Virus record (IMG/VR): IMGVR_UViG_3300036760_000182 | Coordinates: 1-46,937 of that record | Strand: one strand, 5' to 3' | From: a virus | Length of the DNA stretch: 46,937 nt | Shown here: in pieces, positions 2,729 through 38,488 of the stretch | Layout of the letters: each line of letters opens with the position of its first letter | Numbering within the stretch: the first letter of the stretch is position 1 | Position numbers and translations under genes: made by a program | Notes under the pieces: generated by a model | The model's database searches: none | What the model was told of the DNA's origin: nothing | Seen by the model: the letters and a program-made list of their open reading frames with translations, nothing else

Positions 2729-4423
2729 ATGCCAATCTCTCTAACTAATGGTATTGAAAGTAAAGATCCCGGTAATGGCTTTCAAGAAGATTATATTCGT
2801 GACAAGAATATTAAACCACATGCTGTTCAAGAACAATTACTAACTCTTCCAGATCAAATCTTTGAGGCTCTTTATGGAGGAGCCGCCTACGGTGGGAAGA
2901 GCTGGATATTAACATTACTTCCACTATTTAGAGGTTTTTATAAGTTCAGAGGATATAAAGGAATTATCTTCCGTCGTAAGTTTCCAGATCTCGAACGTGA
3001 GATTATACGTCTAAGTAAAGAATACTATCCAAAAACAGGAGCTAAATATAATGAACAAAAGCATAGCTGGGAATGGCCAGAGTTTAATTCCTATCAGGAT
3101 TTTGGTCATGTACAGCATGATTCTGATATTGTTATGTATGACTCTTCCCAGTATAACTATTGTGCATTCGACGAGCTTACTCATTTTTCTGCCCATCCTT
3201 ATCATTATATGGTTGGTAGCCGCGTTCGTCCTAGTAGTTCATTTAATGTAGCTATTGCTCGAAGTGGAACTAATCCTGGTGGGATTGGACAGACATTTGT
3301 TTATAATAGATTTGTACGACCATATGAAGATGGTTTAAAAGTTATACGTGATACATCTACTGGACTTCTCCGTATATTTATACCCGCGAAAGCGGAGGAT
3401 AATCCTTATGGAATGGAATATGATCCATTATATGTTAAGAAACTTGAGATACTAAAAGCAGTTTCTGAGGCTGAGTATAGAGCAAAGAGATATGGAGATT
3501 GGCACGCCTATAAAGGATCTGTATTTACAACTTTTAGACCTATACGATTTCCGGGCGAGCCAGATAGTGCATTGCATGTTATTAAACGGTTTCAGATACC
3601 TGAATTATGGCCTCGTATTCTGTCAATAGATTGGGGTAAAAAAGCAATGTGTTATGCAATGTGGGGAGCCGTTGCTCCAAATCATAAAGTTTATATTTAC
3701 AGAGAGCGTGCTTGGTATGGAAGAGATATCCCTTATTGGGCTAGTGAAATAAGATTGATTCATAATGAGAATAATGAAACTCCAGTTCATACAGTATTAT
3801 GTGGTAGTGCATGGCAGAGTAGAGGTGGAGAGTTAATTGCTGATGAGTTCCAGAAGTATTCAGACTTGGTTCCAAGTAGCTCAGAAAACACTCCGGGAAG
3901 CCGCGTAGCAGGCTTGCAATTGATTCATGATTTTCTAAGATGGGAGAAGAAGACTTCTCTCATATCAAAAGAGAAATTTTATGATATGCAAATAGCTCAA
4001 GAGATATATAGAAATTATGGACCAGCAGCTCTAGAGAATTATAAGAAGAAATTTTATGATGAGTCTGATGAAGATAATCTTCCTATTTTACAAATTTTTG
4101 AGAATTGTAAAATTCTAATTGATACAATTCCAATGTGTATATATGATGATAAAAAGATTGAAGACATTGCTGAATTTGAAGGAGATGATCCAATAGATGA
4201 TCTTCGTTACTTTTGTAAAGCAGCTAAGAGATTCATTGCTGGAGAAATAGGTCATCTTGATATTGCCTCTAAGAAACAAGAGGCTATTGATCATTTACAA
4301 GTGAGTGGAGATATGACTTCTTTTTATCGCCAAATGGAGATGATAGAGAAACAAGATATGACAACATTAAATGATTGCATTCCTGTCAGTAGAAGAAGTC
4401 GCTTTGCAAGGTTAAGACACTAA
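2729..4423 (+). CDS. terL: Terminase large subunit
   Basis: 564 residues. The ATPase domain has a Walker A-like GGAAYGGKS (50-58) and Walker B CAFDE (145-149). The C-terminal nuclease domain starts with ILSIDWG near residue 298, where the Asp is expected to bind metal. The protein drives packaging of DNA through the portal. Its last codons carry the first copy of a 15-bp repeat whose second copy follows the homing endonuclease gene. Removing the insert would change only the last residues, from SRFARLRH to SRFARRMH, so the present C-terminus seems to be a by-product of the insertion. Confidence 0.95.
   Translation: MPISLTNGIESKDPGNGFQEDYIRDKNIKPHAVQEQLLTLPDQIFEALYGGAAYGGKSWILTLLPLFRGFYKFRGYKGIIFRRKFPDLEREIIRLSKEYYPKTGAKYNEQKHSWEWPEFNSYQDFGHVQHDSDIVMYDSSQYNYCAFDELTHFSAHPYHYMVGSRVRPSSSFNVAIARSGTNPGGIGQTFVYNRFVRPYEDGLKVIRDTSTGLLRIFIPAKAEDNPYGMEYDPLYVKKLEILKAVSEAEYRAKRYGDWHAYKGSVFTTFRPIRFPGEPDSALHVIKRFQIPELWPRILSIDWGKKAMCYAMWGAVAPNHKVYIYRERAWYGRDIPYWASEIRLIHNENNETPVHTVLCGSAWQSRGGELIADEFQKYSDLVPSSSENTPGSRVAGLQLIHDFLRWEKKTSLISKEKFYDMQIAQEIYRNYGPAALENYKKKFYDESDEDNLPILQIFENCKILIDTIPMCIYDDKKIEDIAEFEGDDPIDDLRYFCKAAKRFIAGEIGHLDIASKKQEAIDHLQVSGDMTSFYRQMEMIEKQDMTTLNDCIPVSRRSRFARLRH
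4397..4411. repeat. Left copy of 15-bp direct repeat around endonuclease gene 1
   Basis: AGTCGCTTTGCAAGG occurs here inside the last terminase codons and again at 4985-4999. The distance is 588 bp, a multiple of three. Its AAGG lies 11 nt before the endonuclease ATG and may serve as its ribosome binding site. Confidence 0.9.
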
Positions 4424-4986
4424 TGAAAGCTATAAAAAATATTTCTTGGTTGGCAGGTATATTAGAGGGAGAAGGTTCATTTTCTTGTGATGATAATGGA
4501 ACTAATGCTGTAATAAAAGTAGGTATGACTGATAAAGATGTTATTGAGAAAGTAGCTATGGTAGTAAATTATAATGGTAAAATATGTGAACAAGCGCGTG
4601 AAGGATTTAAAATTATGTATATAGTTCAATTATATGGTAATGAAGCTATTCAATGGATGATGACCATTTATAGTTTAATGGGAATTAGGAGAAAAGAGAA
4701 AATTAAATCTATTTTAATTTTATGGAGAGAATATGAAAGAAAATATAGAACAGTTTGTTTACGTGGTCATGAAGTAGTTGGAGATAATGCATACTTAGCT
4801 CCAGGAGACACTAATAATTTTAAATGTAAAGAATGCTTAAGCATTGCTAGCAAGAAAGCTTATGCAAAACATATTTCTACTGAAGGAAAGCAAAAGTCTA
4901 TTGAGAAGATGTTAGCAAAATTACATAATATTAGTATAAATGAAGCTAGAAAACTTATTGAAAATGATAAAAATAATGTTCATTAG
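4423..4986 (+). CDS. LAGLIDADG homing endonuclease 1, free-standing
   Basis: 187 residues. The N-terminus ISWLAGILEGEGSF (about 7-20) is the LAGLIDADG helix with the acidic residue of the active site; only one clear copy is present, so it would work as a homodimer. The C-terminus has a zinc module CLRGH ... CKEC followed by basic helices. The ATG overlaps the terminase stop (TAATG). It lies between the two copies of a 15-bp repeat, so it is an intergenic insertion, not an intron gene. It is more AT-rich than the terminase gene. Confidence 0.9.
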   Translation: MKAIKNISWLAGILEGEGSFSCDDNGTNAVIKVGMTDKDVIEKVAMVVNYNGKICEQAREGFKIMYIVQLYGNEAIQWMMTIYSLMGIRRKEKIKSILILWREYERKYRTVCLRGHEVVGDNAYLAPGDTNNFKCKECLSIASKKAYAKHISTEGKQKSIEKMLAKLHNISINEARKLIENDKNNVH

Positions 4987-4999
4987 TCGCTTTGCAAGG
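4985..4999. repeat. Right copy of 15-bp direct repeat around endonuclease gene 1
   Basis: Second copy of AGTCGCTTTGCAAGG. Reading on in the terminase frame gives an alternative terminase end with TGA at 5009-5011, overlapping the TTG start of the next gene as TTGA. This is the likely arrangement before the insertion. The AAGGAG here serves the gene at 5008. Confidence 0.9.
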
Positions 5000-5007
5000 A
5001 GAATGCA

Positions 5008-5358
5008 TTGATTAGATTCATCTGTTTTCTCCTCGGCCGTCCTTATGAGACTTGCAAGTCATGTGAGACATTAAAAGAGCAACTAGCAATAGCTAACGAG
5101 GATAGACAACGGCTTACTGATACACTATTAAATATAATTAAGCCTAAAGAATACGAAGCTCCTCCTATAGAGATGAATCAAATTGCTCAAAGTTCTGCGT
5201 TGTTTTCACGCCGTCGTGCAGCTTTAGAAGCAAGAGATAGACAAGAAGCCCAAATATTATCTGAGAAGAAACATTTAGGTGTTCCTGATAAACTTAGAGA
5301 TATTTCTGTAGAAGGTTTAGAAAAAGAACTTGGTGTCGAAGAAAAAGAAGGAGCTTGA
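5008..5358 (+). CDS. Small CxxC coiled-coil phage protein
   Basis: 116 residues, TTG start with AAGGAG 6 nt upstream. The N-terminus is hydrophobic (FICFLLGRPY) and followed by CKSC, then a Glu/Lys/Arg-rich helical stretch that could be a coiled coil. A membrane-anchored or head-completion role is possible; no family is recognised. It originally followed the terminase gene directly. Confidence 0.75.
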   Translation: MIRFICFLLGRPYETCKSCETLKEQLAIANEDRQRLTDTLLNIIKPKEYEAPPIEMNQIAQSSALFSRRRAALEARDRQEAQILSEKKHLGVPDKLRDISVEGLEKELGVEEKEGA

Positions 5359-5361
5359 AGA

Positions 5362-5595
5362 ATGCCAAACACATCACCGGCTACTGTAACAATAACTGAG
5401 ACTACTGGACCAGGATTATCTGTTAGTGCATTGAAACTTACTGATGTTGTAGGTATTGAAGTTGATTTTTTTAGAAATTGGTTGAAAGTAACGCGAGATG
5501 GTGCTGGTGGTATTCAATATTATGATTATTCAGCTCTTGCAACATTAACGTGGACTGTTTCTGGTGGCGTTACTACAATAGTTCTCTCTACGTAG
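5362..5595 (+). CDS. Small beta protein, paralogue A
   Basis: 77 residues, GGAG upstream. The last 50 residues (IEVDFFRNWLKVT ... ATLTWTVSGGVTTIVLS) align by eye with the next gene, so the two are tandem paralogues. Probably a minor virion protein; function unknown. Confidence 0.7.
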   Translation: MPNTSPATVTITETTGPGLSVSALKLTDVVGIEVDFFRNWLKVTRDGAGGIQYYDYSALATLTWTVSGGVTTIVLST

Positions 5596-5617
5596 TGTAG
5601 AAGTAGTGTAGAAGTAG
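5593..5617. repeat. Tandem 11-bp repeat after a stop codon
   Basis: Two units of TAGTGTAGAAG plus TAG start at the stop codon of the preceding gene. The same 25 bases occur in reverse complement at 43526-43550, again just after a TAG stop. Because 11 is not a multiple of three, the repeat places TAG in several frames. Confidence 0.8.
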
Positions 5618-5620
5618 AAC

Positions 5621-5857
5621 ATGCCAACAACTCCAGCTATCACAGCTACTGTTAAGATTACTGCAAAAGATATCAATGGAAATAATATAGCTAAACAGTT
5701 CGACTCTGTTTCATTTTTATTCTTTGATTATAATAAAGGTATGGTTCAAGTTACTGATGTTACAGGACAATTTTATTTCTCTCTTACTGCAATAACAACC
5801 CTGACTTATGTAATCGTTAGCGGCGTCGGTGGTGTTACCACTGTAGTGATGAGTTAA
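5621..5857 (+). CDS. Small beta protein, paralogue B
   Basis: 78 residues. VSFLFFDYNKGMVQVT and TLTYVIVSG..GGVTTVVMS correspond to segments of the preceding gene. The spacer between the two genes is filled by the 11-bp repeat, and no ordinary Shine-Dalgarno is visible unless AGAAG in that repeat acts as one. Confidence 0.7.
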   Translation: MPTTPAITATVKITAKDINGNNIAKQFDSVSFLFFDYNKGMVQVTDVTGQFYFSLTAITTLTYVIVSGVGGVTTVVMS

Positions 5858-5861
5858 TATT

Positions 5862-6152
5862 ATGTTTAGTTCCAGTTCTAGCTTAGCAGTTTCTGAAAGT
5901 CCTAAACATGAGCCTAATAGACATAAGAGTAGTGGTCTCTTTAGAAGTAGCAAACAGCATATAGTAGAGAAGAAGATGTTTGGTAAGAAGTTTAAAGGAA
6001 AAGGTAAAGGAATGAAATCTCATTTTTCTGGAGATATGAAGTCTTCTGGGATCTCACCTAGTGTAGAAGAATTTGATAATATGATGTCGAAGATTAGTGG
6101 TTCTAGAAGTAATAAGAAGAAATCTATGTTCTCACGTAAGTCCTTTGGTTAG
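5862..6152 (+). CDS. Basic Ser/Lys-rich protein
   Basis: 96 residues, low complexity: Ser clusters at both ends and a central GKKFKGKGKGMK. No cysteine and no recognised domain. A nucleic-acid-binding or internal head role would fit the charge, but this is only inference from composition. The next small gene ends in a similar motif (KKRSMFTKK against KKSMFSRK). Confidence 0.65.
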   Translation: MFSSSSSLAVSESPKHEPNRHKSSGLFRSSKQHIVEKKMFGKKFKGKGKGMKSHFSGDMKSSGISPSVEEFDNMMSKISGSRSNKKKSMFSRKSFG

Positions 6153-6154
6153 AA

Positions 6155-6313
6155 ATGCCAGCCGTTAGCGGTCGTCAATATAAATTCATGCAAGCTATGA
6201 GGAGTGGAGCTAAGCCATATGGTGGTGGTGTTGGACCTAGTAAATCTGTTGCTGAAGAATTTATTCACAAGACACCTAAAAAGAAAAGATCAATGTTCAC
6301 GAAGAAAAAATAA
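6155..6313 (+). CDS. 52-residue DUF3008-like phage protein
   Basis: Short gene starting MPAVSGRQYKFMQAM. The pattern MPAxSxxQxxFM is typical of a small phage family (DUF3008-like) found near portal genes. The C-terminus is Lys-rich (PKKKRSMFTKKK). The stop TAA overlaps the ATG of endonuclease gene 2. Before insertion of that gene it would have been immediately upstream of the portal gene. Confidence 0.7.
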   Translation: MPAVSGRQYKFMQAMRSGAKPYGGGVGPSKSVAEEFIHKTPKKKRSMFTKKK

Positions 6314-6825
6314 TGCCTACAGAAATTGAGATTGCTTGGTTGGCAGGTCTACTAGAAGGTGAGGGATGCTTTATGATTCAGCATCATGCCTCACCTAGTA
6401 TTCAGTTATCTATGACTGATTTAGATGTTGTAATTAAAGCAGCTAAAATTATGGAAATTAGTTTAGATAGAATTCATCCTAAAAGAGATAATCAACCTAA
6501 TCATAAACCATGTTATGTTCTCAGATGTGATGGTCCAGAGGCTTTTATTTGGATGAGAGCTATTAGACCACATATGGGAGATAGGAGGGGAGCTAAAATA
6601 GATGAAGTTATATCTACTGTAAAAGCTGCTCGTCCTCATATCGATAAAGGGAGAGATGTTTGTCGTAAAGGTCATAGTATTAAATATTCATATGAATACT
6701 ATGTTGGTTCAAGTGGTCAAAGACAATGTAAGAGATGTCTAGGAGTTACCCCAAGACAAAAGACTATAATTAAAAGTAATAATATAAAATTAATCAGTCC
6801 TTTTAATAAGGGAAAGATTGCATAA
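6313..6825 (+). CDS. LAGLIDADG homing endonuclease 2, free-standing
   Basis: 170 residues. IAWLAGLLEGEGCF (about 7-20) is the LAGLIDADG helix. The C-terminal zinc module is CRKGHSIKYSYEYY ... CKRC. Similar in layout to the gene at 4423. It overlaps both neighbours by one base (TAATG on each side) and lies just before the portal gene. No flanking duplication was found here. Confidence 0.9.
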   Translation: MPTEIEIAWLAGLLEGEGCFMIQHHASPSIQLSMTDLDVVIKAAKIMEISLDRIHPKRDNQPNHKPCYVLRCDGPEAFIWMRAIRPHMGDRRGAKIDEVISTVKAARPHIDKGRDVCRKGHSIKYSYEYYVGSSGQRQCKRCLGVTPRQKTIIKSNNIKLISPFNKGKIA

Positions 6826-9440
6826 TGAAAAATGATTTTGATGAAGACATTGCTACATTATTAAAAACAGTTAGTGATCATTTCATTCTGGAAGATCGCA
6901 TGACCAGAGAAAGGCAAATACGTCATTGGAGAAGACTCAAGCTTTACTGGAATAACTTCTCTCAAATTTATTGGTCAGAGGTGGCTCATGATTACAGGAT
7001 CTACAACAGGGACATCAATGCTACTGATACAGACCAAGACTATTATGATAAACCTATCAACGTCTTCAAAGCCTTTCTGGAAACTATTATTGCAGCCTTA
7101 TCAATACAAATTCCAGCAATAAACTGTGTTCCTGATGATGCAGAGAATCCTCTTGATGCACTAACAGCTAAGGCTGGAGATAAGATATCTGAACTAGTCT
7201 ATAAACATAATAATGTAATGTTTTTGTGGCTACATGCTCTTTATATTTATTGCACTGAGGGTATGATTGCTTGTTATAGTTATCCAAAAGAAGATAAATC
7301 TTATGGAACATATGATAAGCCTAAATATAAGGATGAAGAAATAAATGCTTATGTATGTCCTCAATGTGGTGCTAGACAGCCAGATGAACAATTCTCTGAA
7401 AATGAGTTATATGAATTTGCTCCAGGAGATGATGATGTTGATATTAAGAATACTCTACTTGGAAATAGTTCATCCTTACTAAACACAGATTTAGGTCCCT
7501 GCTCAAATTGCTCTATGTTCTTAGCAGATGAACAACGCTGTACTATTCATCAGCCTAATGATGAGATTAAGCCAGAAGATACGTGTGATTATCATGAAAC
7601 AGGCCCTGTAGGAAGCGATGGAAGTTATCCTCGTGGTGAAACTAATAAAGAAGAATCTAACTACCGTCCATACAACGCTGCCGAAGGTAATGAAGAAAAA
7701 GGAGGACCAATCTGCTTTGAGTGTGGAGCAAGATTAGATCCTGAGCTAAAAAAGACTAAACTTGTTATTCCACGTCTTGTAGGAACAACGAAAGAACCAA
7801 AATCTAGAATTTGTCTAGAAGTTTATGGTGGATTATATATTAAAGTTTCTAATACTGCTAAAGTACAAGAAGATACACCATATCTAATATATTCATATGA
7901 AACTCACTATGCTAATGCTTTGGAGTGCTATCCAAACTTAAGAGAGAAAATTCCTCATGGAGGATGGTCTAATGTTGGAGTTAATGATCCTTATGAACAA
8001 TATGGAAGACTGAACACACAATATCGTGGTGAATTTCCAGAAGAGAATGTAACAGTTAAGAATTGTTGGCTCCGCTGCGCGGCATTCAACGTGTTATCAG
8101 AAGAAGATTATAAGAAGTTAAAGAAGAGATTTCCCGATGGAGCTAAGTTTGTAATGGTTAATGATATTCCTGCAGAGTATGAAAATGAGTCATTAGATGA
8201 TCATTGGACATTAACTGAGAATCCTATGTCTGACTTCTTAAACCATGATCCTCTAGGAGAATTGTTAACAAACATTCAGGATATTACTAATGATCTTATC
8301 TCACTAACTCTACAAACAATTGAACATGGAATTGCTCAGACTTATGCTGACCCAGCCGTTGTCAACTTTAATGCTCAACGTCAAATAGAGGCAATGCCTG
8401 GAACAATAACTCCTACTAAACCAGTATCAGGCACTAGAAATATTAGCGAGTCTTTTTATACATCGAAAACGGCTTCGTTATCTCCTGAAGTATTTAATTT
8501 TTATAGAATTATACAAGAACTTGGGCAGTTTGTTTCTGGTGCTCTTCCATCTATATTTGGTGGTAGTCAAGGTGCTGGAAGTTCTAGAACAGCATCTGAG
8601 TATGCAATGTCTAAAGGTATGGCTCTACAAAGATTACAGACTCCATATAGGATGTTGACTATTTGGTGGAAGGAAATATTTAGTAAGGTTATACCAATGT
8701 ATATGAAAGAAATGAAAGAAGATGAGAGAGTAGTTGAGAAGAATGAACAAGGTAACTTTGTTAATGTCTTTATTCGAAAAGCCGAATTAGATGGCAAGAT
8801 AGGATCTATAGAACTTGAACCAGATGAAAAACTTCCAGTCTCTGATGAGCAACAAGCTGATATGATAATGCAGTTATTTACACTAAATAATCAAGAGATT
8901 ACAGCCGCTCTAATGGACCCAGATAATCTACCATATATTGCTAAGGTAATTAAGATTCCACAATTTAAACTTCCTGGATTGGATGACAGGCAGAAACAGT
9001 ATGAGGAAATTGTTGAACTAGTTAATTCAGCTCCTATTCCTCCATCACAAGAAGAAATTCAACAATATCAATTAGCTATCCAACAAGGACAACAAGTTTC
9101 ACCACCTGAAGAAAAGCCTTCAGTTGAAATTGATGTAGATGTAGATAATCATCAAATTGAGGCTTCTATTTGTAAATCTTGGCTTATCTCTAGTGCAGGA
9201 CGATTGGCAAAACAAGAGAATCTTAATGGATATAAAAATGTCTTATTGCATATGAAAGCACATATGGCTATTGTTAATCAACAGATGCAAGCTCAGCAAA
9301 TGCATGAAGATCAAATAAGATTAGCTACTAGTGCTGAAACTAAAAAAATCGGTGAGCCCTCTGACCGTGTTCAACCTCCAAAGGCGAAACAAAGTCAGAA
9401 AATAACTGGAGAAAGAAATGCCAATACCCCAGTCTTCTAG
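6825..9440 (+). CDS. Portal protein with Cys-rich insertion
   Basis: 871 residues. It follows the terminase region and precedes scaffold and capsid genes, the usual place of a portal. Typical portal features include long helices, the region LGELLTNIQDITNDL and the SSRTASEYAMSKG segment, and an acidic/Gln-rich C-terminal part. An insertion at about residues 175-310 carries CPQC, CSNC, a single Cys pair and CFEC, which look like zinc ribbons, with acidic linkers between. The protein forms the ring through which DNA enters and leaves the head and, in podoviruses, ejects the DNA. AAGGGA precedes the start. Confidence 0.85.
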   Translation: MKNDFDEDIATLLKTVSDHFILEDRMTRERQIRHWRRLKLYWNNFSQIYWSEVAHDYRIYNRDINATDTDQDYYDKPINVFKAFLETIIAALSIQIPAINCVPDDAENPLDALTAKAGDKISELVYKHNNVMFLWLHALYIYCTEGMIACYSYPKEDKSYGTYDKPKYKDEEINAYVCPQCGARQPDEQFSENELYEFAPGDDDVDIKNTLLGNSSSLLNTDLGPCSNCSMFLADEQRCTIHQPNDEIKPEDTCDYHETGPVGSDGSYPRGETNKEESNYRPYNAAEGNEEKGGPICFECGARLDPELKKTKLVIPRLVGTTKEPKSRICLEVYGGLYIKVSNTAKVQEDTPYLIYSYETHYANALECYPNLREKIPHGGWSNVGVNDPYEQYGRLNTQYRGEFPEENVTVKNCWLRCAAFNVLSEEDYKKLKKRFPDGAKFVMVNDIPAEYENESLDDHWTLTENPMSDFLNHDPLGELLTNIQDITNDLISLTLQTIEHGIAQTYADPAVVNFNAQRQIEAMPGTITPTKPVSGTRNISESFYTSKTASLSPEVFNFYRIIQELGQFVSGALPSIFGGSQGAGSSRTASEYAMSKGMALQRLQTPYRMLTIWWKEIFSKVIPMYMKEMKEDERVVEKNEQGNFVNVFIRKAELDGKIGSIELEPDEKLPVSDEQQADMIMQLFTLNNQEITAALMDPDNLPYIAKVIKIPQFKLPGLDDRQKQYEEIVELVNSAPIPPSQEEIQQYQLAIQQGQQVSPPEEKPSVEIDVDVDNHQIEASICKSWLISSAGRLAKQENLNGYKNVLLHMKAHMAIVNQQMQAQQMHEDQIRLATSAETKKIGEPSDRVQPPKAKQSQKITGERNANTPVF

Positions 9441-10674
9441 TAGTGTTCTATCTCCTGAAAAGTCAGACAGTCCTGCAAAGTCTTTAACGGCTGATGATAT
9501 TAATGATCTATTTAGTAAGGACGAAGTTGAAGAGGTTAAAGAGAAACCTAGCAAGGAAGTAAGAGAAGTTAAAGAGCCTAAAGAGAAAGTAGAAGAAGTC
9601 GAAGATGATGAGTTAGAGCTAAAAGAACCAGATGAAGAAATAGAAAAAATAGACTTATCAAAGGAAAGCGATGTCGAAGACATCGAAGCTCCTCCTAGAA
9701 AGAAGGAGATTCTAGCTAAGTTTCCAGACTTGTTTAAGACATTTCCATTCCTAGAGAAGATTCTTTATCGCGATAGACAGTATTCTGAGTTATTTGGATC
9801 ATTTGATGATGCTAAGGAAATAGCAGAAAAATCTGAAGTATTCAATAACTTTGAATCCCAGTTATTGGAAGGTAATACAGAAGAAATTCTTAAAGAAGTA
9901 AAATCAACTGATGAGAAAGCTTTCAATATCATTGTAGATGAATATCTTCCAACTTTAGCGAAGGTTGATAAAGAAGCTTATTTTCATGTAGTTGGTAATC
10001 TTAATAGAAGGTTAATCATGGAGATGGTACAGGAAGCTAATGATACTGATAATGATGACTTGAAGCAGGCTGCTCTATTAGTAAACCAATTTGTCTTTGG
10101 TAGTTCAAAATTTACTGCTCCCACCCTACGGGTGAAAAAAGAGCCTGATTCTGAGCGTAGTAAAGTAGAAGAAGAAAGACTTTCTTTCACGCGCGAACGC
10201 TTTGAGAGCGCAAGAGATGATCTACAATCTAGAGTTGATAATACGTTAAGAGCAACTATATCTGATTACATTGATCCTAAAGGTAATATGAGTAGTTATG
10301 TTAAGAAGAACGCTGTATCTGACGCTATGAAGATTCTTAGTTCTGCTATCGCTAACGATAGTTCAGTAGTAAAGAATCTTGATAATCTTTGGCGTTCTGC
10401 TTTTAATTCTAAGTTCTCTAAAGATTCGTTAAGTAAGATACAATCTTTTTATCTCTCTAAAGCTAAAGGTAATCTTAAGAATGCGATTCTGAAAGCTCGT
10501 TCGGAAGCATTGAAAGACACACGTCCTGCAAATAGGGACAAAGAGACAGATGAAGTAGAAGAAGAAACTCCTCGACGAAGAGGACCAATTACACCTGGCA
10601 GACCTAGCCAATCAAAAGGTAAAAACGAACAACGAAAAGGAGAAAGTGTAGCAGATTTCTTTGCTAGAGACTGA
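9418..10674 (+). CDS. Scaffold protein
   Basis: 418 residues. It starts 23 bases inside the portal gene. The first 90 residues are highly acidic with Lys/Glu repeats, the middle is helical, and the C-terminus is basic (RRRGPITPGRP, KGKNEQRKGE), ending SVADFFARD. Lack of cysteine, charge layout and a place between portal and capsid genes are typical of head scaffolds, whose basic tail contacts the coat protein. The function is inferred from these features. Confidence 0.75.
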   Translation: MPIPQSSSSVLSPEKSDSPAKSLTADDINDLFSKDEVEEVKEKPSKEVREVKEPKEKVEEVEDDELELKEPDEEIEKIDLSKESDVEDIEAPPRKKEILAKFPDLFKTFPFLEKILYRDRQYSELFGSFDDAKEIAEKSEVFNNFESQLLEGNTEEILKEVKSTDEKAFNIIVDEYLPTLAKVDKEAYFHVVGNLNRRLIMEMVQEANDTDNDDLKQAALLVNQFVFGSSKFTAPTLRVKKEPDSERSKVEEERLSFTRERFESARDDLQSRVDNTLRATISDYIDPKGNMSSYVKKNAVSDAMKILSSAIANDSSVVKNLDNLWRSAFNSKFSKDSLSKIQSFYLSKAKGNLKNAILKARSEALKDTRPANRDKETDEVEEETPRRRGPITPGRPSQSKGKNEQRKGESVADFFARD

Positions 10675-10685
10675 GGTGAATGCTT

Positions 10686-11939: not shown

Positions 11940-11958
11940 TGATTTTTTTGAATGATTT

Positions 11959-12724: not shown

Positions 12725-12732
12725 TTAACAAC

Positions 12733-28458: not shown

Positions 28459-28469
28459 TATTTTAAGAC

Positions 28470-28995: not shown

Positions 28996-28996
28996 T

Positions 28997-30887: not shown

Positions 30888-30888
30888 T

Positions 30889-31119: not shown

Positions 31120-31451
31120 TCTTCATCTCTTATAAGGAGGTTAATTTCGATTACTTCTAAGTCATCAGATGTTCTACCATCATCTTTAAAATCTACAATA
31201 TCATCATATTCTCCAGTATAATTATTTTGACTGCCTGAACGTTTTCCATTAGGATTAGCAACCCACATTGTTATACATCTAGCCGCTCTACGTCTAGTAT
31301 CTATTAATCTAGGAACTCCTAATTTCTGTCTAAATTCATGCTCAGGATGGCTTGGATTCCAATGAGAATAGCCTCTATCTCTCTTAGCTTGTGGCATTAA
31401 TTCTCCAGTTGCTTTGTGCCTAATAGCGTAGTAGATAAAACTTTTAGTCAT
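31116..31451 (-). CDS. Conserved phage protein
   Basis: 111 residues. YYAIRHKATGELMPQAKRDRG is a common phage signature, followed by HWNPSHPEHEF, LGVPRLIDTRRRAARCITMW and a predicted loop. Function unknown. Coupled on both sides by ATGA. Confidence 0.72.
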   Translation of the reverse strand: MTKSFIYYAIRHKATGELMPQAKRDRGYSHWNPSHPEHEFRQKLGVPRLIDTRRRAARCITMWVANPNGKRSGSQNNYTGEYDDIVDFKDDGRTSDDLEVIEINLLIRDEE

Positions 31452-31630
31452 TCTTTATTATCCTCAATATATTGATTAAGTCTTTTAATTAGTACAATCA
31501 TTGGCAAATCAAATTCATAACTAATGTAACCAGCACGTTTAATAAAATAGTCATATAATGCCTTGACTTCATCAGTTGTAAGAGTAAATAGCTCTACTAA
31601 TTCACCATCAAATTCTCTTGCATACTTCAT
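31448..31630 (-). CDS. Small protein, unknown
   Basis: 60 residues, acidic, helical. ATGA overlaps on both sides show a tight operon. No motif. Confidence 0.6.
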   Translation of the reverse strand: MKYAREFDGELVELFTLTTDEVKALYDYFIKRAGYISYEFDLPMIVLIKRLNQYIEDNKE

Positions 31631-31839
31631 ACTAACTCCAGCAATTCAAATGGCAGAAATCCTCCATTAATTGCATCTAAAACAACCTCCACTCTTCTAC
31701 CATGATTATAATCAACATTAAACCAATCAATTTCAGTTTTAGAATCTAGTTCAATTAAATACTCTGTACCTATTAGAGCTTCTACAATTTCAATTCCATC
31801 TAAACTTTTAGTCTTCAATCTAGCCTTGACAATCATCAC
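31627..31839 (-). CDS. Small protein, unknown
   Basis: 70 residues, mixed beta/alpha (MMIVKARLKTKSLDGIEIVE). It overlaps the polymerase gene stop. No motif recognised. Confidence 0.6.
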   Translation of the reverse strand: MMIVKARLKTKSLDGIEIVEALIGTEYLIELDSKTEIDWFNVDYNHGRRVEVVLDAINGGFLPFELLELV

Positions 31840-34313
31840 ATTTTCACCTTCTCAAAACTAGCATAATTAGTTCTTGACATTTCAATATCACAAGGAATAA
31901 CTAGTTTAATATTTCTTTTCAATGTGCAATATGTAGAAAAATCAACTGGAGTCTCCATATGTTTCTTCATAAGCTTTGCGTAGACCTCCCAATTGTTTTC
32001 AGGTGCTTGCAGATATAAAGCATCATGCTTTTCTTCTGCCCACATCACCTGAGTGTTACCATTTAATTCTTCGTCAATCTTCAAACCAGCTCCCTGTATT
32101 ATATGTGCTACTGTTCTCTGTGGAATATTTGCGTAGGCTTCTTTGTAAATATCATCCATACGTCCATTAAATATTCTAACACCACCCATAGGATCTATTA
32201 GTACTCTTGAACTATCAATTGCCTCTTTAATATCTCTATGAAAAACATCTCTTATTTTTGGAGAAGCTTTATGAAAAATGTCAAGCATCTGCCCTGCCCT
32301 CCACTCTGATATATCCATAGGAATATCATACTTCTGAGCATTTGTATTGAAAGTAATCATAAATGTATGCTTTCCAGTATCATAACTTGCTGCATATCTA
32401 ACAGTTTTACCTGTATATCGCTCTGGGCCATCTTTAGGAAGAAAATCTACAATAGGATGATGAAAGTCAACTCCTAATTCTAAATTGCTTGTATAACCAA
32501 ATAGAAGAGCGGCTGTACGTCTATGAACATCAATTTTATCAAATGCTTCTAGAAGCTCCCAATCTTCACTTAGAACTGCGACTATACGAGCTTCTGCTTG
32601 ACTTGCATCTGCCTGGATAATAACTCTTCCTTCATCAGCAATGAACATACTTTTGATATCTTTACCAAGTCGTCCATGCGCAGAGATAGTGTGGTCTGCC
32701 AAGCCGATTTTCTTAGGTCTAAGCGGTTTCTTAAGAATTCCAGTAGAGCTTCTGCAAGTTTCAGTTGCTGATATGTTGTAAGCTGATTTGCATCGTCCAT
32801 CATAGTCAGGGCAGAAAGAGATTTGACGACTCTTTTGATCTCTAATTCTGCGTTCTTCAAGGACTTCATTCAGAATTTCCTTTTGCTCCTTCTTTTTGCA
32901 AGCTCCTAATATAGCAACAATAGAGTCTTCACTTGTAGGATCTCTTTTTCTTACCTTAAATTTCATGATTTTATATAACAACTCAAACATCTGTGGATAT
33001 GATTTAACATTTACTTCCTGTCCGATCTTTTCTATTAATCTTTCATGTACAACACGCTGCATCTCTGTATATTTTATCTTCAATTCTTTTTGTCTAGCTA
33101 AATCGACACGTTTTCCTGTAGTCTCTAATTTTAGATAAAACTTATGTTTCTTCATCATGTAGTCATAATAATACTCTTTTAAAGGAACATTAAATTTCTC
33201 TGCCATCTCTAATAAATCTATTTCTTGCGCTTCATCTACTTCAAATTCGACAGCGCAATCTCTAGCATTGTATTTAAGTAACTGATCAACTTTAACTTTT
33301 CCAAGCTTGAATTCTTTCCCTTCATCCTTATAATATGGTTCTCTCGTCCATAATGAACTGACAACACATAATCGTTTGTCTGGAAGTTCTGGGAAGAGAA
33401 CTCTAGTTTTAATAAGGGTGTCTGAATAGACATTTGGAGTTTCAAATCCGATTAAACCTAGTTTATATTCGTCGTATTTAAAATTATGTCCAATTACTCG
33501 AAGCCGTCGTAATTGCTGGTCAATTATCCTCCAACATTCATCCAACTCATTATCACCCATATCAGTAATAACATTAGTACCAATATGATGAAGGAGAGGG
33601 ACACTGATAGCATGATGTCTGTTGAAAGCAAATCCAATACATACAGGAACGCAATTAATGGACTCAATATCAACTGCTGCTTTCTCACATGCCTCATATT
33701 CTCTGAAGAATCGGTGCAGATCTAAACTGTTGTGTGCTATTGATAATGTCCTCTCAGGTAATATTAGTGAAGATGTTAAAGACTCCTCAGCGGCTCTGAT
33801 AATATCAGCTTCAATTAACTTTGTATAGACCCAACTTAGGCCACCTTTTGTTTCTCCTTCTTCACCCCAAGAATGTGAAAACAGAGCGGCTGGATGTAAA
33901 GTTGGAACTACCTTAAAAACACCATTACGATCCGTTAATATTGAACCACGATAATTTAATATTCCAGAAACATCACATACGGCCTGAAGAGCTAAATCCC
34001 CTACTGCTAATATACAGTTAGGATGGAGTTTATTAATTTCATTGTCCCATAACTCCTGCATCGACTGCCCAATGTCAACTCCTATAAGATGGAGCTTTTT
34101 GAGATCATTAAGAGGAGGGCGATACTTAATTACATTCGTAATATATGTATCAGAGCGTCTAATACCTGCCTTAAATAAATAATCATCAAGCATCTTTCCG
34201 GTGGGACCAACAAATGGAATACCTTGTTCATCTTCATATTTGCCTGGAGCTTCTCCAATAATCATTAATTTTGGCTCAACGGAGCCAATTCCACCTACAT
34301 ATTGAGAGCTCAT
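31836..34313 (-). CDS. DNA polymerase I with N-terminal uracil-DNA glycosylase domain
   Basis: 825 residues. The N-terminal UDG family 4/5-like domain has IIGEAPGKYEDEQGIPFVG (18-36) and TLHPAALF. The 3'-5' exonuclease domain follows with AVDIES (Exo I), GHNFKYDEY (Exo II) and YNARDCAVE (Exo III). The polymerase domain has motif A DASQAEAR, motif B TGKTVRYAASYDTG and motif C HDA. It would replicate the genome with proofreading. The UDG part lacks the N-terminal CxxC pair that helps hold an iron-sulphur cluster in family 4, so it may only bind uracil or serve as a structural domain. Confidence 0.9.
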   Translation of the reverse strand: MSSQYVGGIGSVEPKLMIIGEAPGKYEDEQGIPFVGPTGKMLDDYLFKAGIRRSDTYITNVIKYRPPLNDLKKLHLIGVDIGQSMQELWDNEINKLHPNCILAVGDLALQAVCDVSGILNYRGSILTDRNGVFKVVPTLHPAALFSHSWGEEGETKGGLSWVYTKLIEADIIRAAEESLTSSLILPERTLSIAHNSLDLHRFFREYEACEKAAVDIESINCVPVCIGFAFNRHHAISVPLLHHIGTNVITDMGDNELDECWRIIDQQLRRLRVIGHNFKYDEYKLGLIGFETPNVYSDTLIKTRVLFPELPDKRLCVVSSLWTREPYYKDEGKEFKLGKVKVDQLLKYNARDCAVEFEVDEAQEIDLLEMAEKFNVPLKEYYYDYMMKKHKFYLKLETTGKRVDLARQKELKIKYTEMQRVVHERLIEKIGQEVNVKSYPQMFELLYKIMKFKVRKRDPTSEDSIVAILGACKKKEQKEILNEVLEERRIRDQKSRQISFCPDYDGRCKSAYNISATETCRSSTGILKKPLRPKKIGLADHTISAHGRLGKDIKSMFIADEGRVIIQADASQAEARIVAVLSEDWELLEAFDKIDVHRRTAALLFGYTSNLELGVDFHHPIVDFLPKDGPERYTGKTVRYAASYDTGKHTFMITFNTNAQKYDIPMDISEWRAGQMLDIFHKASPKIRDVFHRDIKEAIDSSRVLIDPMGGVRIFNGRMDDIYKEAYANIPQRTVAHIIQGAGLKIDEELNGNTQVMWAEEKHDALYLQAPENNWEVYAKLMKKHMETPVDFSTYCTLKRNIKLVIPCDIEMSRTNYASFEKVKM

Positions 34314-34598
34314 CTATTTAAGAAGATCTTTGATATCTTGTTTAAGATGGCTCAAATCAGCCGTTTTCTTATCCCACTCCGGACCATCACATGATTTGAG
34401 ATCTATTTCTTTTAGAAATTCTTCCTGCGAGCGAATGTAAGATTCTTGTAGACCACAATTAAAACATATTCTAATAGTTTTTCTATCACCATTCTCTAAT
34501 ATAAATGGAGCTACATCACTACTAGCTCTAAACATAAAGTAATGCTTACAATTCATTTCAGGATTTTTAGCTCTAATTCTTTCTTGATGTGAAGGCAT
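34314..34598 (-). CDS. Small Cys/His protein, unknown
   Basis: 94 residues. NCKHYFMFR and CFNCG could form one zinc site. The C-terminus is an acidic helix. It precedes the polymerase gene with direct abutment. Confidence 0.65.
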   Translation of the reverse strand: MPSHQERIRAKNPEMNCKHYFMFRASSDVAPFILENGDRKTIRICFNCGLQESYIRSQEEFLKEIDLKSCDGPEWDKKTADLSHLKQDIKDLLK

Positions 34599-34778
34599 CT
34601 AATTTGAAATTTCATCATAATGTAAAAGTATATGTTTAACTCTTTCAATCTTCTCTATTCTAGAAAGAAAAATGTTTATTTCTTCTTTGATTTTGTAATT
34701 CGTTTTATCAAGATCACCTTCTTTATTATTTTCTACATCTAAACTGAATTTAATCTTGACTAAAGTATATTCAGTCAC
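34599..34778 (-). CDS. 59-residue protein, GTG start
   Basis: Short gene coupled to its upstream neighbour by GTGA, with AGGAGG a few bases before the start. Sequence begins MTEYTLVKIKFSLDVENN and continues as a charged helix. The strong ribosome binding site makes it very likely real. Confidence 0.7.
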   Translation of the reverse strand: MTEYTLVKIKFSLDVENNKEGDLDKTNYKIKEEINIFLSRIEKIERVKHILLHYDEISN

Positions 34779-35077
34779 TCAACCTCCTCTAACTCTTGCT
34801 CTCTTTTCTTTTTATGAATAAATTCTAATGCTTCATAACCATAATTAAATCTCTCCAACTGTTTCTCATGAGTTTTCAGCCATCTAACTATTAATAAATC
34901 TTCACTTATTCCTCCTAGACTACGCCTGAGAGATTTAGCTGTATCCTGAACACGCCACTTATCATGAGATTGAAGTTTAGAGAGATGAAATTTATGTGTC
35001 TCCTTTGCTTTCTCAAGCCATTTCTGCTGCATTAATTCTCCAAAAAGATTACTAGGAGTTGGCTCGCTAAAGGCCAC
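34775..35077 (-). CDS. Small helical protein, unknown
   Basis: 100 residues, basic, helical, with LRRSLGGISEDLLIVRWLKTHE. Follows the Acb2-like gene after a 64-bp spacer. Conserved style; function unknown. Confidence 0.68.
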   Translation of the reverse strand: MAFSEPTPSNLFGELMQQKWLEKAKETHKFHLSKLQSHDKWRVQDTAKSLRRSLGGISEDLLIVRWLKTHEKQLERFNYGYEALEFIHKKKREQELEEVE

Positions 35078-35141
35078 CTAAAGCGGGCTTTATTCGTGAG
35101 TTAAAAGGCAACTCCTTATTTCCGCCCATCCTAGCAAACTG
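35078..35141 (-). other. Spacer with weak stem-loop
   Basis: Largest gap in the lower minus operon. GAGTT pairs with AACTC (35098-35102 and 35110-35114) and GGGC with GCCC outside it (35085-35088, 35124-35127). No T-run follows. Could be a processing site after the Acb2-like gene. Confidence 0.35.
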
Positions 35142-35357
35142 CTATCCTACTTCAGATTTAGGGTCATTAAATACAACAGCTTTGATAGCCCACATAGCGG
35201 CTGTTTCTAGTTCTGTTAATGCAATACTTTTCTGTCTACTGTTTGGGCAATTGTCTTCAACTACTTTAGCAATATCAGAAAATTTCTCGCGCAGATAACT
35301 AATTCTTTTAAATCCATCATCGCTAGGCTTGTGATAAGCGAAAGGCTTATCTATCAT
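35142..35357 (-). CDS. Acb2-like anti-CBASS cyclic-nucleotide sponge
   Basis: 71 residues. The C-terminal helix-hairpin SRQKSIALTELETAAMWAIKAV (about 40-61) fits the Acb2/Tad1 hairpin signature, in which sREkSlAlTkLEeAmMWAnaAI is conserved; the N-terminal AYHKPSDDGFKRISYLREKF also fits. Acb2 proteins form hexamers that bind cyclic di- and trinucleotides and so block CBASS defence. The length is as expected. Coupled to the gene upstream by ATGA, so it is co-expressed with replication genes. The W and LE residues are present, and Arg replaces nothing essential that I can see. Confidence 0.75.
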   Translation of the reverse strand: MIDKPFAYHKPSDDGFKRISYLREKFSDIAKVVEDNCPNSRQKSIALTELETAAMWAIKAVVFNDPKSEVG

Positions 35358-35734
35358 GACATCGGCTTGAAATCAACTACGTCATTAAATTCGTTACCTT
35401 TGTTACTCTTACCACGCTTGGTATAAATCATCAGTTTATGTCCAACAGTCTGCTCAAATAGCTGAGTTGAAAGTTCATATCCCTTAACTGGATCATATGG
35501 AAAAGCTAGTGTCTTCCACAGAGACTTACCAAAGCCTAGAGCTTTCTCATTAAACAGCTTCTGACAGATAACTCCTTTACCAGGACCATCAATAATCTTA
35601 AAATAGAATAAACAGTTAGTAGACTGGTCTGTCTCTGCCTCTTTCTCCTTATATTCTACGATTTCAGATGGATGCCAGGTGGTTTCCACTAGGTCTCCAC
35701 GCTTAAGGTCGTCGGGGGTTAAAATTGCTCTCAT
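35354..35734 (-). CDS. Probable ssDNA-binding protein, DUF669-like
   Basis: 126 residues. KRGDLVETTWHPSEIVEY, LFYFKIIDGPGKGVICQKLF and GKSNKGNEFNDVVDFKP match the strand pattern of phage DUF669-type proteins that lie next to Sak4-like ATPases. It would coat ssDNA in annealing or replication. Separated from the Sak4-like gene only by an inserted HNH gene. OB fold inferred. Confidence 0.5.
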   Translation of the reverse strand: MRAILTPDDLKRGDLVETTWHPSEIVEYKEKEAETDQSTNCLFYFKIIDGPGKGVICQKLFNEKALGFGKSLWKTLAFPYDPVKGYELSTQLFEQTVGHKLMIYTKRGKSNKGNEFNDVVDFKPMS

Positions 35735-36204
35735 GGTTTTTGCCTTCTTTTTTGGTTGATTGTGTTTTTGTGTTTATTGTAGTGTTTGTTTCTAGCTATC
35801 CTAGCACATTCTCTACACTTTAATCTCTTACTAGTATCTAATCTATGTCTTCTTGTGATATATCCATGTATTTTTAAGGAATGACCACTTTTGCAATATT
35901 TTCTAGATTCTCTATAATCTCTACCATTATCAGATTGAGTACCTACATACAAACAGTTTGGGTTCCAACAATTTCTATATTTACATATTAATTTATGTAA
36001 TGCATTTAGTATAGGACTATCTAAATCTAATTCTAAATGAATATAAGCAGATAACCTATGCACTCCATAATGATTACCATCTTCTCTACTACCTACCCAT
36101 AGCATTCCATATCCTTGACTAGTTCTTCCCATCCATAACCAATGACCATCTTCGCTTATGATCGTATTGGCCCACAATCTGGATAGAACTTCTTCTTTAT
36201 TCAA
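35731..36204 (-). CDS. HNH homing endonuclease 1, free-standing
   Basis: 157 residues, TTG start right after the Sak4-like stop. NUMOD-like start GHWLWMGRTSQGYGMLWVG, then HRLSAYIHLE, ALHKLICKYRNCWNPNCLYVGTQSDN which is the HNH core (His, His, Asn and a Cys site). The C-terminus has the zinc module CKSGH ... CREC shared with the LAGLIDADG genes of this genome. It overlaps the next gene by ATGA. Inserted between the ATPase gene and the ssDNA-binding gene. Confidence 0.88.
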   Translation of the reverse strand: MNKEEVLSRLWANTIISEDGHWLWMGRTSQGYGMLWVGSREDGNHYGVHRLSAYIHLELDLDSPILNALHKLICKYRNCWNPNCLYVGTQSDNGRDYRESRKYCKSGHSLKIHGYITRRHRLDTSKRLKCRECARIARNKHYNKHKNTINQKRRQKP

Positions 36205-36205
36205 T

Positions 36206-37066
36206 CTACGTTTTCCAGGTTTGTGTTGTTGGTTGAGTGAATGGATTTGCTATTCTAGCAGCTAATTCTTCTTCAGTTAATTCTTTCTTAGGTTCAATAT
36301 CTCTACTCTTGTCAGCAAGTTCTTTCCATACAGTATAGAATAGCTTATTAGTAATATCAAATTCTTTAGGAATATCTAATGCAGTTTTAGCAAAATCATC
36401 TCCAACCATATCAGTTAATACTATTCTTCTATTTGTATTATCATTATAATCGACTCTACGTGCAAAGTGATATATTTCATTAAAATAGCCTGGGACTATT
36501 GCTCCAACTTTCTGACCATAACTCACAATAGATGTAACTTTACTTACAATCATACTACTTCCAGAGCCAGACATGCTTAAACTAGGAAGTGGGTGAGCTG
36601 TTAGGATTATATGACATGGAAGCATCTTCATTATATCTAATGCTTGACTAACTAATGAAGTCTCCACTTTATAGGCGTCAAAATCTGGAATAAGATTTGG
36701 TTCATTTGATTTTCTTACTTTAGATCCTCTAAATCCTAATGACCAATTTATAGCACTGGCTGTGAGACTCGTTACTGAGTCTGTTATAATTGCTGTATAA
36801 CGACAATCTTTAGTAAATCCTATTAGTTTATTAAGGAACTCATTCGCATTGTGACTAGAATATGTATCATAATTAACATTATCTAAAAGTTCCGGACAAT
36901 ATTTCTTAAAATATGTTAACACTGGAAGCATCCTACCATCAAAATCAAATACATATATTGGACCCTCTACTGCAAATGTACAAGCACTAATAGTTTTACC
37001 CATACCATTAGCTCCTTTAAGGAGCATTGATATATTCTTACTTGGTATTAATTGACTGAGCTTCAT
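36206..37066 (-). CDS. Sak4-like RecA-fold ATPase
   Basis: 286 residues. Walker A is GANGMGKT (18-25), Walker B is AIITDS (about 93-98), with DFDGR after the first helix as in AAA_24 proteins. Sak4 and related ATPases assist annealing and recombination of phage ssDNA, usually beside an SSB, which matches the gene at 35354. The C-terminus is NPFTQPTTQTWKT. Good ribosome binding site AGGAGGAAGAA before ATG. Confidence 0.8.
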   Translation of the reverse strand: MKLSQLIPSKNISMLLKGANGMGKTISACTFAVEGPIYVFDFDGRMLPVLTYFKKYCPELLDNVNYDTYSSHNANEFLNKLIGFTKDCRYTAIITDSVTSLTASAINWSLGFRGSKVRKSNEPNLIPDFDAYKVETSLVSQALDIMKMLPCHIILTAHPLPSLSMSGSGSSMIVSKVTSIVSYGQKVGAIVPGYFNEIYHFARRVDYNDNTNRRIVLTDMVGDDFAKTALDIPKEFDITNKLFYTVWKELADKSRDIEPKKELTEEELAARIANPFTQPTTQTWKT

Positions 37067-37494
37067 TTCTTCCTCCTTCTCTCATTGTAACAGTTAGCAC
37101 AATATCTTGTCCATGTAGTCTTACTAGTATTTCTATTTATTTGTTTATGTTTTCTGTATGGAAATTTACATTTAGGACAAACTTCTTTACTTGCATTATA
37201 ATGTGTTCCAGCCTTAATAGAATCATATGTGTTGTCTGAATCAGAGCCAGGTATAATATGTTCTGGATTAAAACAAGAACCATTATTACATTTGTGTCTT
37301 GCTATTATTTTCTTATCATCATAATTTATATCACTCCACAAACACATAACTAATCTACTCAATAAGAATCTATTACCATTTATTTTTATTCGTATATTAT
37401 GACAGGTTTCAGGAATATAATTTGATATCCAACAACCATTAGAATTTATAGTTTTAGGAATTAAATCAATAAATTCTTTAGTTATTAATATCAT
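37063..37494 (-). CDS. HNH homing endonuclease 2, free-standing
   Basis: 143 residues. GCWISNYIPE, FLLSRLVMCLW and IARHKCNNGSCFNPEHIIPGSDSDN give the HNH core. The C-terminal zinc module is CPKC ... CANC. It lies between the poly-Asp gene and the Sak4-like gene. The sequence GAGGAAGAAAT (ribosome binding site plus start) occurs just before it and again at its end, before the Sak4-like start. Confidence 0.87.
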   Translation of the reverse strand: MILITKEFIDLIPKTINSNGCWISNYIPETCHNIRIKINGNRFLLSRLVMCLWSDINYDDKKIIARHKCNNGSCFNPEHIIPGSDSDNTYDSIKAGTHYNASKEVCPKCKFPYRKHKQINRNTSKTTWTRYCANCYNERRRKK

Positions 37495-37505
37495 ATTTCT
37501 TCCTC
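37491..37505. repeat. Duplicated ribosome binding site/start context, copy 1
   Basis: TCATATTTCTTCCTC here is identical to 37678-37692; on the minus strand it reads GAGGAAGAAATATGA, the start region of HNH gene 2 and of the poly-Asp gene. A shorter version lies at 37063-37076 before the Sak4-like gene. Confidence 0.8.
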
Positions 37506-37513
37506 ACTTTTCA

Positions 37514-37681
37514 CTAGCTTGGAAATTCGTCTGGTTCTCTTATATCTCTTGCACTATCTTCTCCTTTTTCATAATCATTTTCGTCTTCATCATCTTCATC
37601 GTCATCATTTTCATCATTTTCATCTTCCAAATCTTCATCATCATCGTCATCATCATCATCGTCATCATCAGAAATTCTCAT
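37514..37681 (-). CDS. Hyperacidic 55-residue poly-Asp protein
   Basis: Starts MRIS followed by 11 Asp residues, then Glu/Asp/Asn repeats and the end REPDEFPS. 35 of 55 residues are Asp or Glu (24 and 11), with only four Lys/Arg. The ATG overlaps the stop of the previous gene (ATGA) and GAGGAAGAA is at the right distance. A DNA mimic or an acidic tail that binds SSB partners is possible; no family known to me. The GAT repeats make the length prone to change. Confidence 0.7.
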   Translation of the reverse strand: MRISDDDDDDDDDDDEDLEDENDENDDDEDDEDENDYEKGEDSARDIREPDEFPS

Positions 37682-37692
37682 ATTTCTTCCTC
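37678..37692. repeat. Duplicated ribosome binding site/start context, copy 2
   Basis: Second exact copy of the 15-nt sequence at 37491-37505. It gives the poly-Asp gene its ribosome binding site inside the end of the previous gene. Confidence 0.8.
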
Positions 37693-38118
37693 TTCTTGTT
37701 TTTGTTTTTGATGGATTGTTTGTTCAAGACGTTCTGATAGTGAAAGTTCTGCTGGTTTATCACTGTACATTCCTACTAATCCATTAATAATAGAGTCCTT
37801 CATATATTCTCCCATATCTCTAGTATCAGTTTCTTTTTTAGGCTTATGGCAATTATTGCAATGAGGTTTTGATAAACGAATAGAATATTCATTCATTACA
37901 AAAGATTCCCCACAACGCCAACAGATTGACCTTTTTCCTAATACTAGAGAGATGTTAGTTTTGAATGCACAGTCTGGTAGGGCGCAGAAGAATATATCAT
38001 TCCCAGACTTATATCTTAATCTTTTTAATTTATGCACATGACTGATTTTTGGCATTGTGGCGCTCATTCTGCTTTTCGTTTTTGCATCTTCTACAGTATC
38101 TAGTTCCTCTTTTTTCAT
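37678..38118 (-). CDS. Zinc-ribbon protein, unknown
   Basis: 146 residues from the ATG at 38118, which has GGGAG 8 nt upstream; the upstream ATG at 38136 has no such signal. It contains FFCALPDC, ICWRCGESF and HCNNC, six cysteines able to bind zinc, and an acidic Gln/Glu tail. It overlaps the end of HNH gene 3 by 89 nt in another frame. Perhaps a transcription or replication cofactor; unknown. Confidence 0.65.
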   Translation of the reverse strand: MKKEELDTVEDAKTKSRMSATMPKISHVHKLKRLRYKSGNDIFFCALPDCAFKTNISLVLGKRSICWRCGESFVMNEYSIRLSKPHCNNCHKPKKETDTRDMGEYMKDSIINGLVGMYSDKPAELSLSERLEQTIHQKQKQEEEEI

Positions 38119-38488
38119 GTCTATATCTCCCACCACATTTAGGACAATTAATCTTTGCTATATTTCTATGGGTTTTGGTTATAACTAAATCCTTGGCATT
38201 ATCAGTTTGTGTACCAACGTAAACATGCTCTGAATTAAAACACGCTCTATTATTACAAAATGTTTTATGGTTAACTTGTACGCTATCATCATTTATATCT
38301 AAACCTAAATAAACTGCTGCTGATACTCTATGGAGATATATCCTTTTTCTATTTATTGTAACTTCTCCATACCCATTGTTTAAATGTCCAACATATAGCC
38401 AACATCCAATTTCATTAGTAGTTCTTGGTAGACTTAATATAAATTCTAGGGTTATTGCATTGTTTACTCTTTTTCTTTTATATTTCAT
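38030..38488 (-). CDS. HNH homing endonuclease 3, free-standing
   Basis: 152 residues. GCWLYVGHLNNGYGEVTI, HRVSAAVYLGLD and VNHKTFCNNRACFNSEHVYVGTQTDN form the HNH core. The C-terminal zinc module CPKCGGRYRHEKRG ... CRRC lies partly in the overlap with the next gene. Weak ribosome binding site. It follows a 149-bp structured spacer. Confidence 0.87.
   Translation of the reverse strand: MKYKRKRVNNAITLEFILSLPRTTNEIGCWLYVGHLNNGYGEVTINRKRIYLHRVSAAVYLGLDINDDSVQVNHKTFCNNRACFNSEHVYVGTQTDNAKDLVITKTHRNIAKINCPKCGGRYRHEKRGTRYCRRCKNEKQNERHNAKNQSCA

Follow-up and report, generated by a model that had tools for sequence, protein, structure and literature searches.

An exchangeable C-terminal cysteine module in candidate LAGLIDADG and HNH homing endonucleases of a soil phage

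The DNA of one soil phage (IMG/VR record IMGVR_UViG_3300036760_000182, positions 1 to 46,937; this whole stretch of 46,937 nucleotides is referred to as the window) contains three open reading frames (ORFs) for mini-LAGLIDADG proteins, L1 to L3, and three for HNH proteins, H1 to H3, all of which carry a cysteine module at the C-terminus. We consider it about 78% probable that the six genes are free-standing homing endonucleases equipped with an uncatalogued, exchangeable, NUMOD-like C-terminal DNA-binding module. A sequence-only reading of the window had located six endonuclease genes of two folds and had proposed that all six share one C-terminal zinc module which has been shuffled between nuclease families. 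All six ORFs are indeed present and their cysteine motifs are as described; the sharing of one module is borne out for L1 to L3 and H1, but not for H2 and H3, which possess a variant form.

In L1 to L3 and in H1, the module of approximately 40 residues consists of C-x2-G-H...C-x2-C and a basic helix. It occupies residues 109-152 of L1 (4747-4878, plus strand; C-LRGH...C-KEC), 113-154 of L2 (6649-6774, plus strand; C-RKGH...C-KRC), 97-144 of L3 (12247-12390, plus strand; C-RNGH...C-LDC) and 100-151 of H1 (35752-35907, minus strand; C-KSGH...C-REC). At the same place, a C-P-K-C...C-x2-C variant is found in residues 103-143 of H2 (37066-37188, minus strand; CPKC...CANC) and 112-149 of H3 (38042-38155, minus strand; CPKC...CRRC). 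In all six tails two Cys pairs, or a Cys/His and a Cys/Cys pair, are thus followed by basic residues. The pattern C-x2-G-H-x(8-32)-C-x2-C occurs in just 7 of the 2538 distinct ORFs that the window and its relatives comprise, and as six of these seven are endonucleases of this kind (L1, L2, L3, H1 and two from relatives), its sharing exceeds chance.

Profile comparisons extend the similarity over the whole module. Segment 162-215 of the profile of PHROG 826, an HNH family, matches the C-terminal ends of L1 (E=7e-5) and L3 (E=1.6e-4), both LAGLIDADG proteins; the PHROG 826 profile is also co-linear with the H1 module, and its alignment to H3 spans the module there. The profile comparison that the sequence-only reading had suggested as a check was performed with hhalign, whereby LAGLIDADG-only and HNH-only module profiles aligned with a probability of 98.6% (E 9e-16), against at most 2% for the control profiles (HNH core, LAGLIDADG core and GLCxxCY tails). 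Equally, a hidden Markov model (HMM) of LAGLIDADG-only modules picks up DrYang 96, an HNH protein, at E=1e-12. A leave-out module HMM, built without the window sequences, recognises L1 (5e-6), L2 (9e-4) and L3 (8e-4), H1 over its whole length at 0.13 and the second half only of H3 at 0.05, with no match to H2. These scores make one common module well supported for L1 to L3 and moderately supported for H1, the hairpin of which is longer than usual, and leave it unproven for H2 and H3. The CPxC form of the latter two can be aligned with the CxxGH form over its full length, although with a profile-profile probability of just 19-42%, and the HNH tree places the CPxC tails in between CxxGH tails, where H1 and H3 fall into one weakly supported clade; a common origin of the two forms is likely, but unproven.

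The earlier proposal was to fall if the Cys segments of the two nuclease classes had different folds, and this was not seen. In the AlphaFold models of L1 (48-sequence alignment, pLDDT 91) and H1 (28 sequences, pLDDT 93.5), the order of DSSP elements beyond the catalytic domain is alike: a short helix or turn is followed by two short strands and a long helix starting at C-x2-C. This predicted order is that of a treble-clef zinc finger, and the module may be treble-clef-like. VIA-align rows for the module region, which pointed to ribosomal protein C-termini at Z about 3, resemble long-helix matches and were set aside.

The tail is exchanged between catalytic cores. In the same slot of 70 LAGLIDADG proteins from the window and its relatives, a CxxGH finger, a CGH variant, a GLCxxCY finger, a helix-turn-helix, a two-helix tail or no tail at all is found, and the HNH relatives end in CxxGH, CPxC, CGH or helix-turn-helix tails, with the CPxC counts biased because one scan pattern contained CPxC. 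The CGH sub-variant is present on both folds (LAGLIDADG proteins L140, L148 and L153; HNH protein L258). On a tree of the 70 LAGLIDADG cores, the CxxGH/CGH module with its 17 carriers requires 11 changes, compared with 15.4 on average after shuffling (minimum 11), so that its inheritance along with the core is only weak; the tails of the HNH set track the core much better (12 changes versus 27.8 shuffled). A telling illustration is L1 itself, as its sisters L003 and L070, approximately 50% identical in the core, lack the finger, yet have kept the far C-terminal helix pair of L1, as if a finger cassette had been inserted or lost. Exchange of the module between two unrelated folds, as originally claimed, is thus upheld by the profile match and by sister enzymes with other tails or none.

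The claim of shuffling between two nuclease families even understated the distribution. At least 568 IMG/VR relatives were recovered in a scan with the conserved module, together with 90, mostly actinobacterial, from a set of 84,980 genomes of bacteria and archaea. Core profiles assigned 112 of 146 distinct module ORFs sampled to HNH and 1 to LAGLIDADG, counts that carry the bias of the scan pattern GHE[YF][TS]xENT. According to Pfam, further partners are GIY-YIG nucleases (L284, L287), WhiB regulators with a terminal Cys module from three actinobacterial genera (L358, L363, L380), a tyrosine integrase (L367) and the Endonuclease VII proteins L282 and L310, in which the module is placed in front of the nuclease; nucleases of PHROG 3377 type (L290, L330) also carry it. 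In addition, tandem or almost bare modules exist (L374, L418, L372, L419), with two or three tandem copies in a single protein observed in L202:608-1141, L374 and L418. The GIY-YIG, Endonuclease VII, WhiB, integrase, PHROG 3377-type and tandem or bare cases are each recognised by the LAGLIDADG-only module HMM at 1e-6 to 1e-13. In being a small module common to LAGLIDADG, HNH, GIY-YIG and Endonuclease VII nucleases, it resembles the functional class of NUMODs. The NUMOD models of Pfam, on the other hand, gave no match for the six window proteins up to E=5, LittleE gp14 and DrYang 96 match Pfam models of the catalytic domains only, and in none of the proteins tested is the module covered by a Pfam model. 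Probably, the module is a promiscuous DNA-binding domain, as yet uncatalogued, which belongs to phages and actinobacteria and has spread among LAGLIDADG, His-Me/HNH, GIY-YIG and Endonuclease VII enzymes as well as to WhiB and a tyrosine integrase.

Annotation is affected as well. Since the tail alone yields profile matches, LAGLIDADG, GIY-YIG and WhiB proteins match PHROGs labelled 'HNH endonuclease'. The LAGLIDADG proteins LittleE gp14 (L115:2459-2992) and Liebe gp29 (L118:1489-1884) are labelled HNH endonuclease in public records, as is PHROG 5046.

The six genes are best explained as selfish elements inserted between conserved phage genes. The N-terminal catalytic domain would be either a LAGLIDADG domain with one motif, for which dimeric action is expected, or an HNH domain of I-HmuI/I-PpoI type, with cleavage and homing as the presumed activities. 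The C-terminal module would probably be zinc-stabilised and DNA-binding, composed of a C-x2-G-H knuckle, a beta hairpin and a basic helix that opens with C-x2-C. DNA binding is suggested by this basic helix, by replacement of the module with a helix-turn-helix in both folds and by DNA-binding fusion partners. The most likely role of the module is to provide additional DNA contacts next to the cut site or catalytic footprint, and it is proposed that its swap or mutation would consequently retarget the nuclease. Different cores would acquire their tails by recombination from a shared pool (CxxGH finger, CGH and CPxC variants, GLCxxCY finger, helix-turn-helix or none), and by virtue of this exchangeability the module would work like a NUMOD, though without a Pfam model.

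Alternatively, the module might be a ruler or regulator rather than a DNA reader, setting the distance between binding and catalytic parts or serving as a redox switch, as does the linker zinc finger of I-TevI, which is a distance determinant and reported to be redox-responsive (PMC2988022; PMC10448857). This alternative is unlikely, as the module lies at the C-terminus, most of the proteins have no other DNA-binding domain beyond it, helix-turn-helix tails can fill the slot in its stead, and it is found in tandem copies and almost alone.

Assignment of the six proteins to homing endonuclease families rests on their catalytic domains. L1 (187 aa; 4423-4986, plus strand; LAGILEGEG; E=5e-12), L2 (6313-6825, plus strand; LAGLLEGEG; E=8e-18) and the divergent L3 (11959-12420, plus strand; AAGVYEGEG; E=3e-4) are short proteins with a single LAGLIDADG motif each that match PHROG 5046; the assignment is weakest for L3, which forms a long branch in the core tree. 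Solved LAGLIDADG enzymes are matched by the profile of the L1-type alignment, and the best Foldseek matches of the L1 model are I-Vdi141I, I-MsoI and I-CreI. L1 shares its predicted catalytic fold with I-CreI, I-MsoI and I-AniI; unlike these enzymes, L1 to L3 combine a core of approximately 100 residues with an appended putative zinc module. The HNH proteins match PHROGs 826, 1872, 6254 and 1492, among them PHROG 826 for the His-Me finger protein H1 (35731-36204, minus strand; E=6e-18 over residues 3-155) and for H3 (38030-38488, minus strand; E=1.6e-15), and PHROG 6254 for H2 (37063-37494, minus strand; E=6.5e-11). Their catalytic domain resembles that of I-HmuI (HNH) and I-PpoI (His-Cys box), with HNH profile matches at E=5e-5 and 6e-4, respectively. 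These two are also the top homing matches of the H1 model (VIA-align Z 6.4-6.8), although the structural alignments end at residue 102 of H1 and leave the module outside. The I-PpoI/I-HmuI-type pattern H...C...C...N-P-x-H...N is conserved in H2 and H3, with N-S for N-P in H3. In H1, Cys replaces the last HNH His (N-P-N-C), as it does in the relative L051:2881-3342. A reading of H1 as a dead enzyme was not adopted, because this position is a structural zinc ligand in I-PpoI-type enzymes and the relative shares the Cys.

With respect to neighbouring genes, L1 lies at the 3' end of the terminase gene, L2 before a putative portal gene and L3 after the gene for the major head protein, H1 adjoins Sak4, H2 sits between the zinc-protein gene and sak4, and H3 is located upstream of the zinc-protein gene. 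PHROGs support the identities of terminase, major head protein and Sak4 as given in the sequence-only reading, but gave no match for the putative portal or for the zinc protein. To call these loci the most conserved targets is a fair description of the neighbouring genes, whereas as cleavage targets they are presumptive. A small conserved ORF (MPAVSGRQYKFMQAMRSG...) at 6157-6312 immediately precedes L2 and runs straight into the portal gene in L017.

The manner of insertion can be traced for L1. The 15-bp direct repeat AGTCGCTTTGCAAGG is present within the last codons of terL (4397-4411) and again on the 3' side of L1 (4985-4999). The right copy continues into SRFARRMH and a stop codon (4985-5011, plus strand), outside the present terL; this is the native terminase C-terminus in relatives, with the same arrangement at intact junctions, and the segment contains AAGGAG as well as the TTG with which the next gene starts. 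The window terminase now ends in SRFARLRH and a stop codon upstream of L1, and removal of L1, giving an empty terL site, restores the C-terminus of the relatives. From the repeat and the displaced tail it follows that the L1 element would have inserted among the final codons of terL and provided substitutes for them, and the original tail would have become the leader of the following gene; as judged from the sequence, this breaks neither terL nor that following gene. Chance was discarded as origin of the repeat, as the maximum in 45 control genes was 13 bp, 15 bp arose once in 2000 random pairs and the right copy in addition continues as terL tail. Similar flanking repeats were sought at L2, L3, H1 to H3 and 15 insertions in relatives, and none was found. 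Mobile ORFs of fungal mitochondria likewise insert near the 3' end of a gene, supply a replacement tail and leave the native tail downstream (PMC3630166), although on a larger scale, whereas the present case concerns a phage and eight codons only.

Comparison with 44 terminase relatives from IMG/VR demonstrates presence/absence polymorphism at otherwise conserved sites. Uninterrupted junctions in relatives join terL to g5008 (often), the capsid gene to g12413 and sak4 to g35354, and none of the 44 has L1 or L3 at its window site. An L2 orthologue, 78% identical, precedes the portal gene in one relative, G003, and H2 counterparts occupy the slot between zinc-protein gene and sak4 in G008 and G015. 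Slots are also reused, as G008 has a LAGLIDADG gene of another type, GFFDGEG, between terL and g5008, the L1 slot (L020:9674-10132), and in G003 a LAGLIDADG gene of this GFFDGEG type lies ahead of the zinc-protein gene (L052:5193-5636), where the window has H3. In one relative, approximately 1.5 kb lie between terL and g5008 (L044:1109-2664). Ten near-complete relatives of 42-49 kb hold 0 (six relatives), 2, 3, 3 and 4 LAGLIDADG/HNH genes of this kind, which places six in 47 kb at the top of the range, in line with the heavy load asserted from the sequence; phage T4 has 15 homing endonucleases (PMC2988022).

The same comparison bears on the view that the HNH genes, and perhaps the LAGLIDADG genes too, rather than being selfish, encode resident enzymes that have been recruited to process phage DNA. 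An HNH gene of H2 type in the same zinc-protein/sak4 slot in three phages is as expected for a resident gene. Several near-complete relatives without any such gene and the reuse of slots by unrelated nucleases, such as H3 versus LAGLIDADG upstream of the zinc-protein gene in G003, make this view quite improbable. Finally, that the Cys segments of the two classes are convergent small zinc knuckles is hardly credible, even if short Cys motifs arise easily and the CPxC tails of H2 and H3 match the G-H form weakly, in view of the profile-profile match across the whole module with its low controls, the cross-class HMM match, the like element order in the L1 and H1 models and the matching of the PHROG 826 segment across folds.

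Some observations weigh against the interpretation of the six genes as homing endonucleases with a common exchangeable module: no sequence match of the module to solved structures was found, the H1 match to the leave-out HMM is weak, and support in the LAGLIDADG tree is low, with a short alignment and 36 of 67 inner forks open.

Sharing of a tail by LAGLIDADG and HNH proteins is not new, since it was stated in 2013 for LittleE gp14 that the C-terminal approximately 50 residues are related to Pham 6944 HNH proteins, with unclear functional basis and with no fold, survey or other partners given (PMC3706429). LittleE gp14 has a single LAGLIDADG core and the same C-x2-G-H...C-x2-C tail, but is a lone protein encoded in a group I intron of a mycobacteriophage major capsid gene, in contrast to the three free-standing LAGLIDADG genes plus HNH genes of the window. 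What appears to be new is the breadth of sharing across partners; a literature search, with most subscription papers outside its scope, found neither the module described as a domain of its own nor its GIY-YIG, Endonuclease VII, WhiB and integrase partners. NUMODs are equally small modules tethered to the catalytic domain of several homing-nuclease families, although the window module matches no NUMOD or other Pfam model. They have been assigned to HNH, GIY-YIG and EDxHD phage enzymes, with LAGLIDADG enzymes considered compact folds that multimerise, and a LAGLIDADG protein with an add-on module departs from this usual division, in which LAGLIDADG enzymes are compact multimers and NUMODs belong to elongated HNH or GIY-YIG enzymes (PMC3943268). 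Zinc DNA-binding parts are also traded among phage homing endonucleases and other proteins in the case of T5orf172 enzymes with CapR zinc fingers (PMC10448857), where the finger is CxxC...CxC on GIY-YIG-type nucleases, in contrast to CxxGH...CxxC on several nuclease folds in the present case.

By trading targeting parts across unrelated nucleases, homing elements could reach new sites. With a natural tail on LAGLIDADG, HNH, GIY-YIG and Endonuclease VII enzymes that alternates with a helix-turn-helix, whether the tail sets the target is testable by swaps. If the module is indeed such a promiscuous DNA-binding domain, one small finger would help to target enzymes of very different chemistry and would represent a naturally tested add-on for nuclease retargeting.

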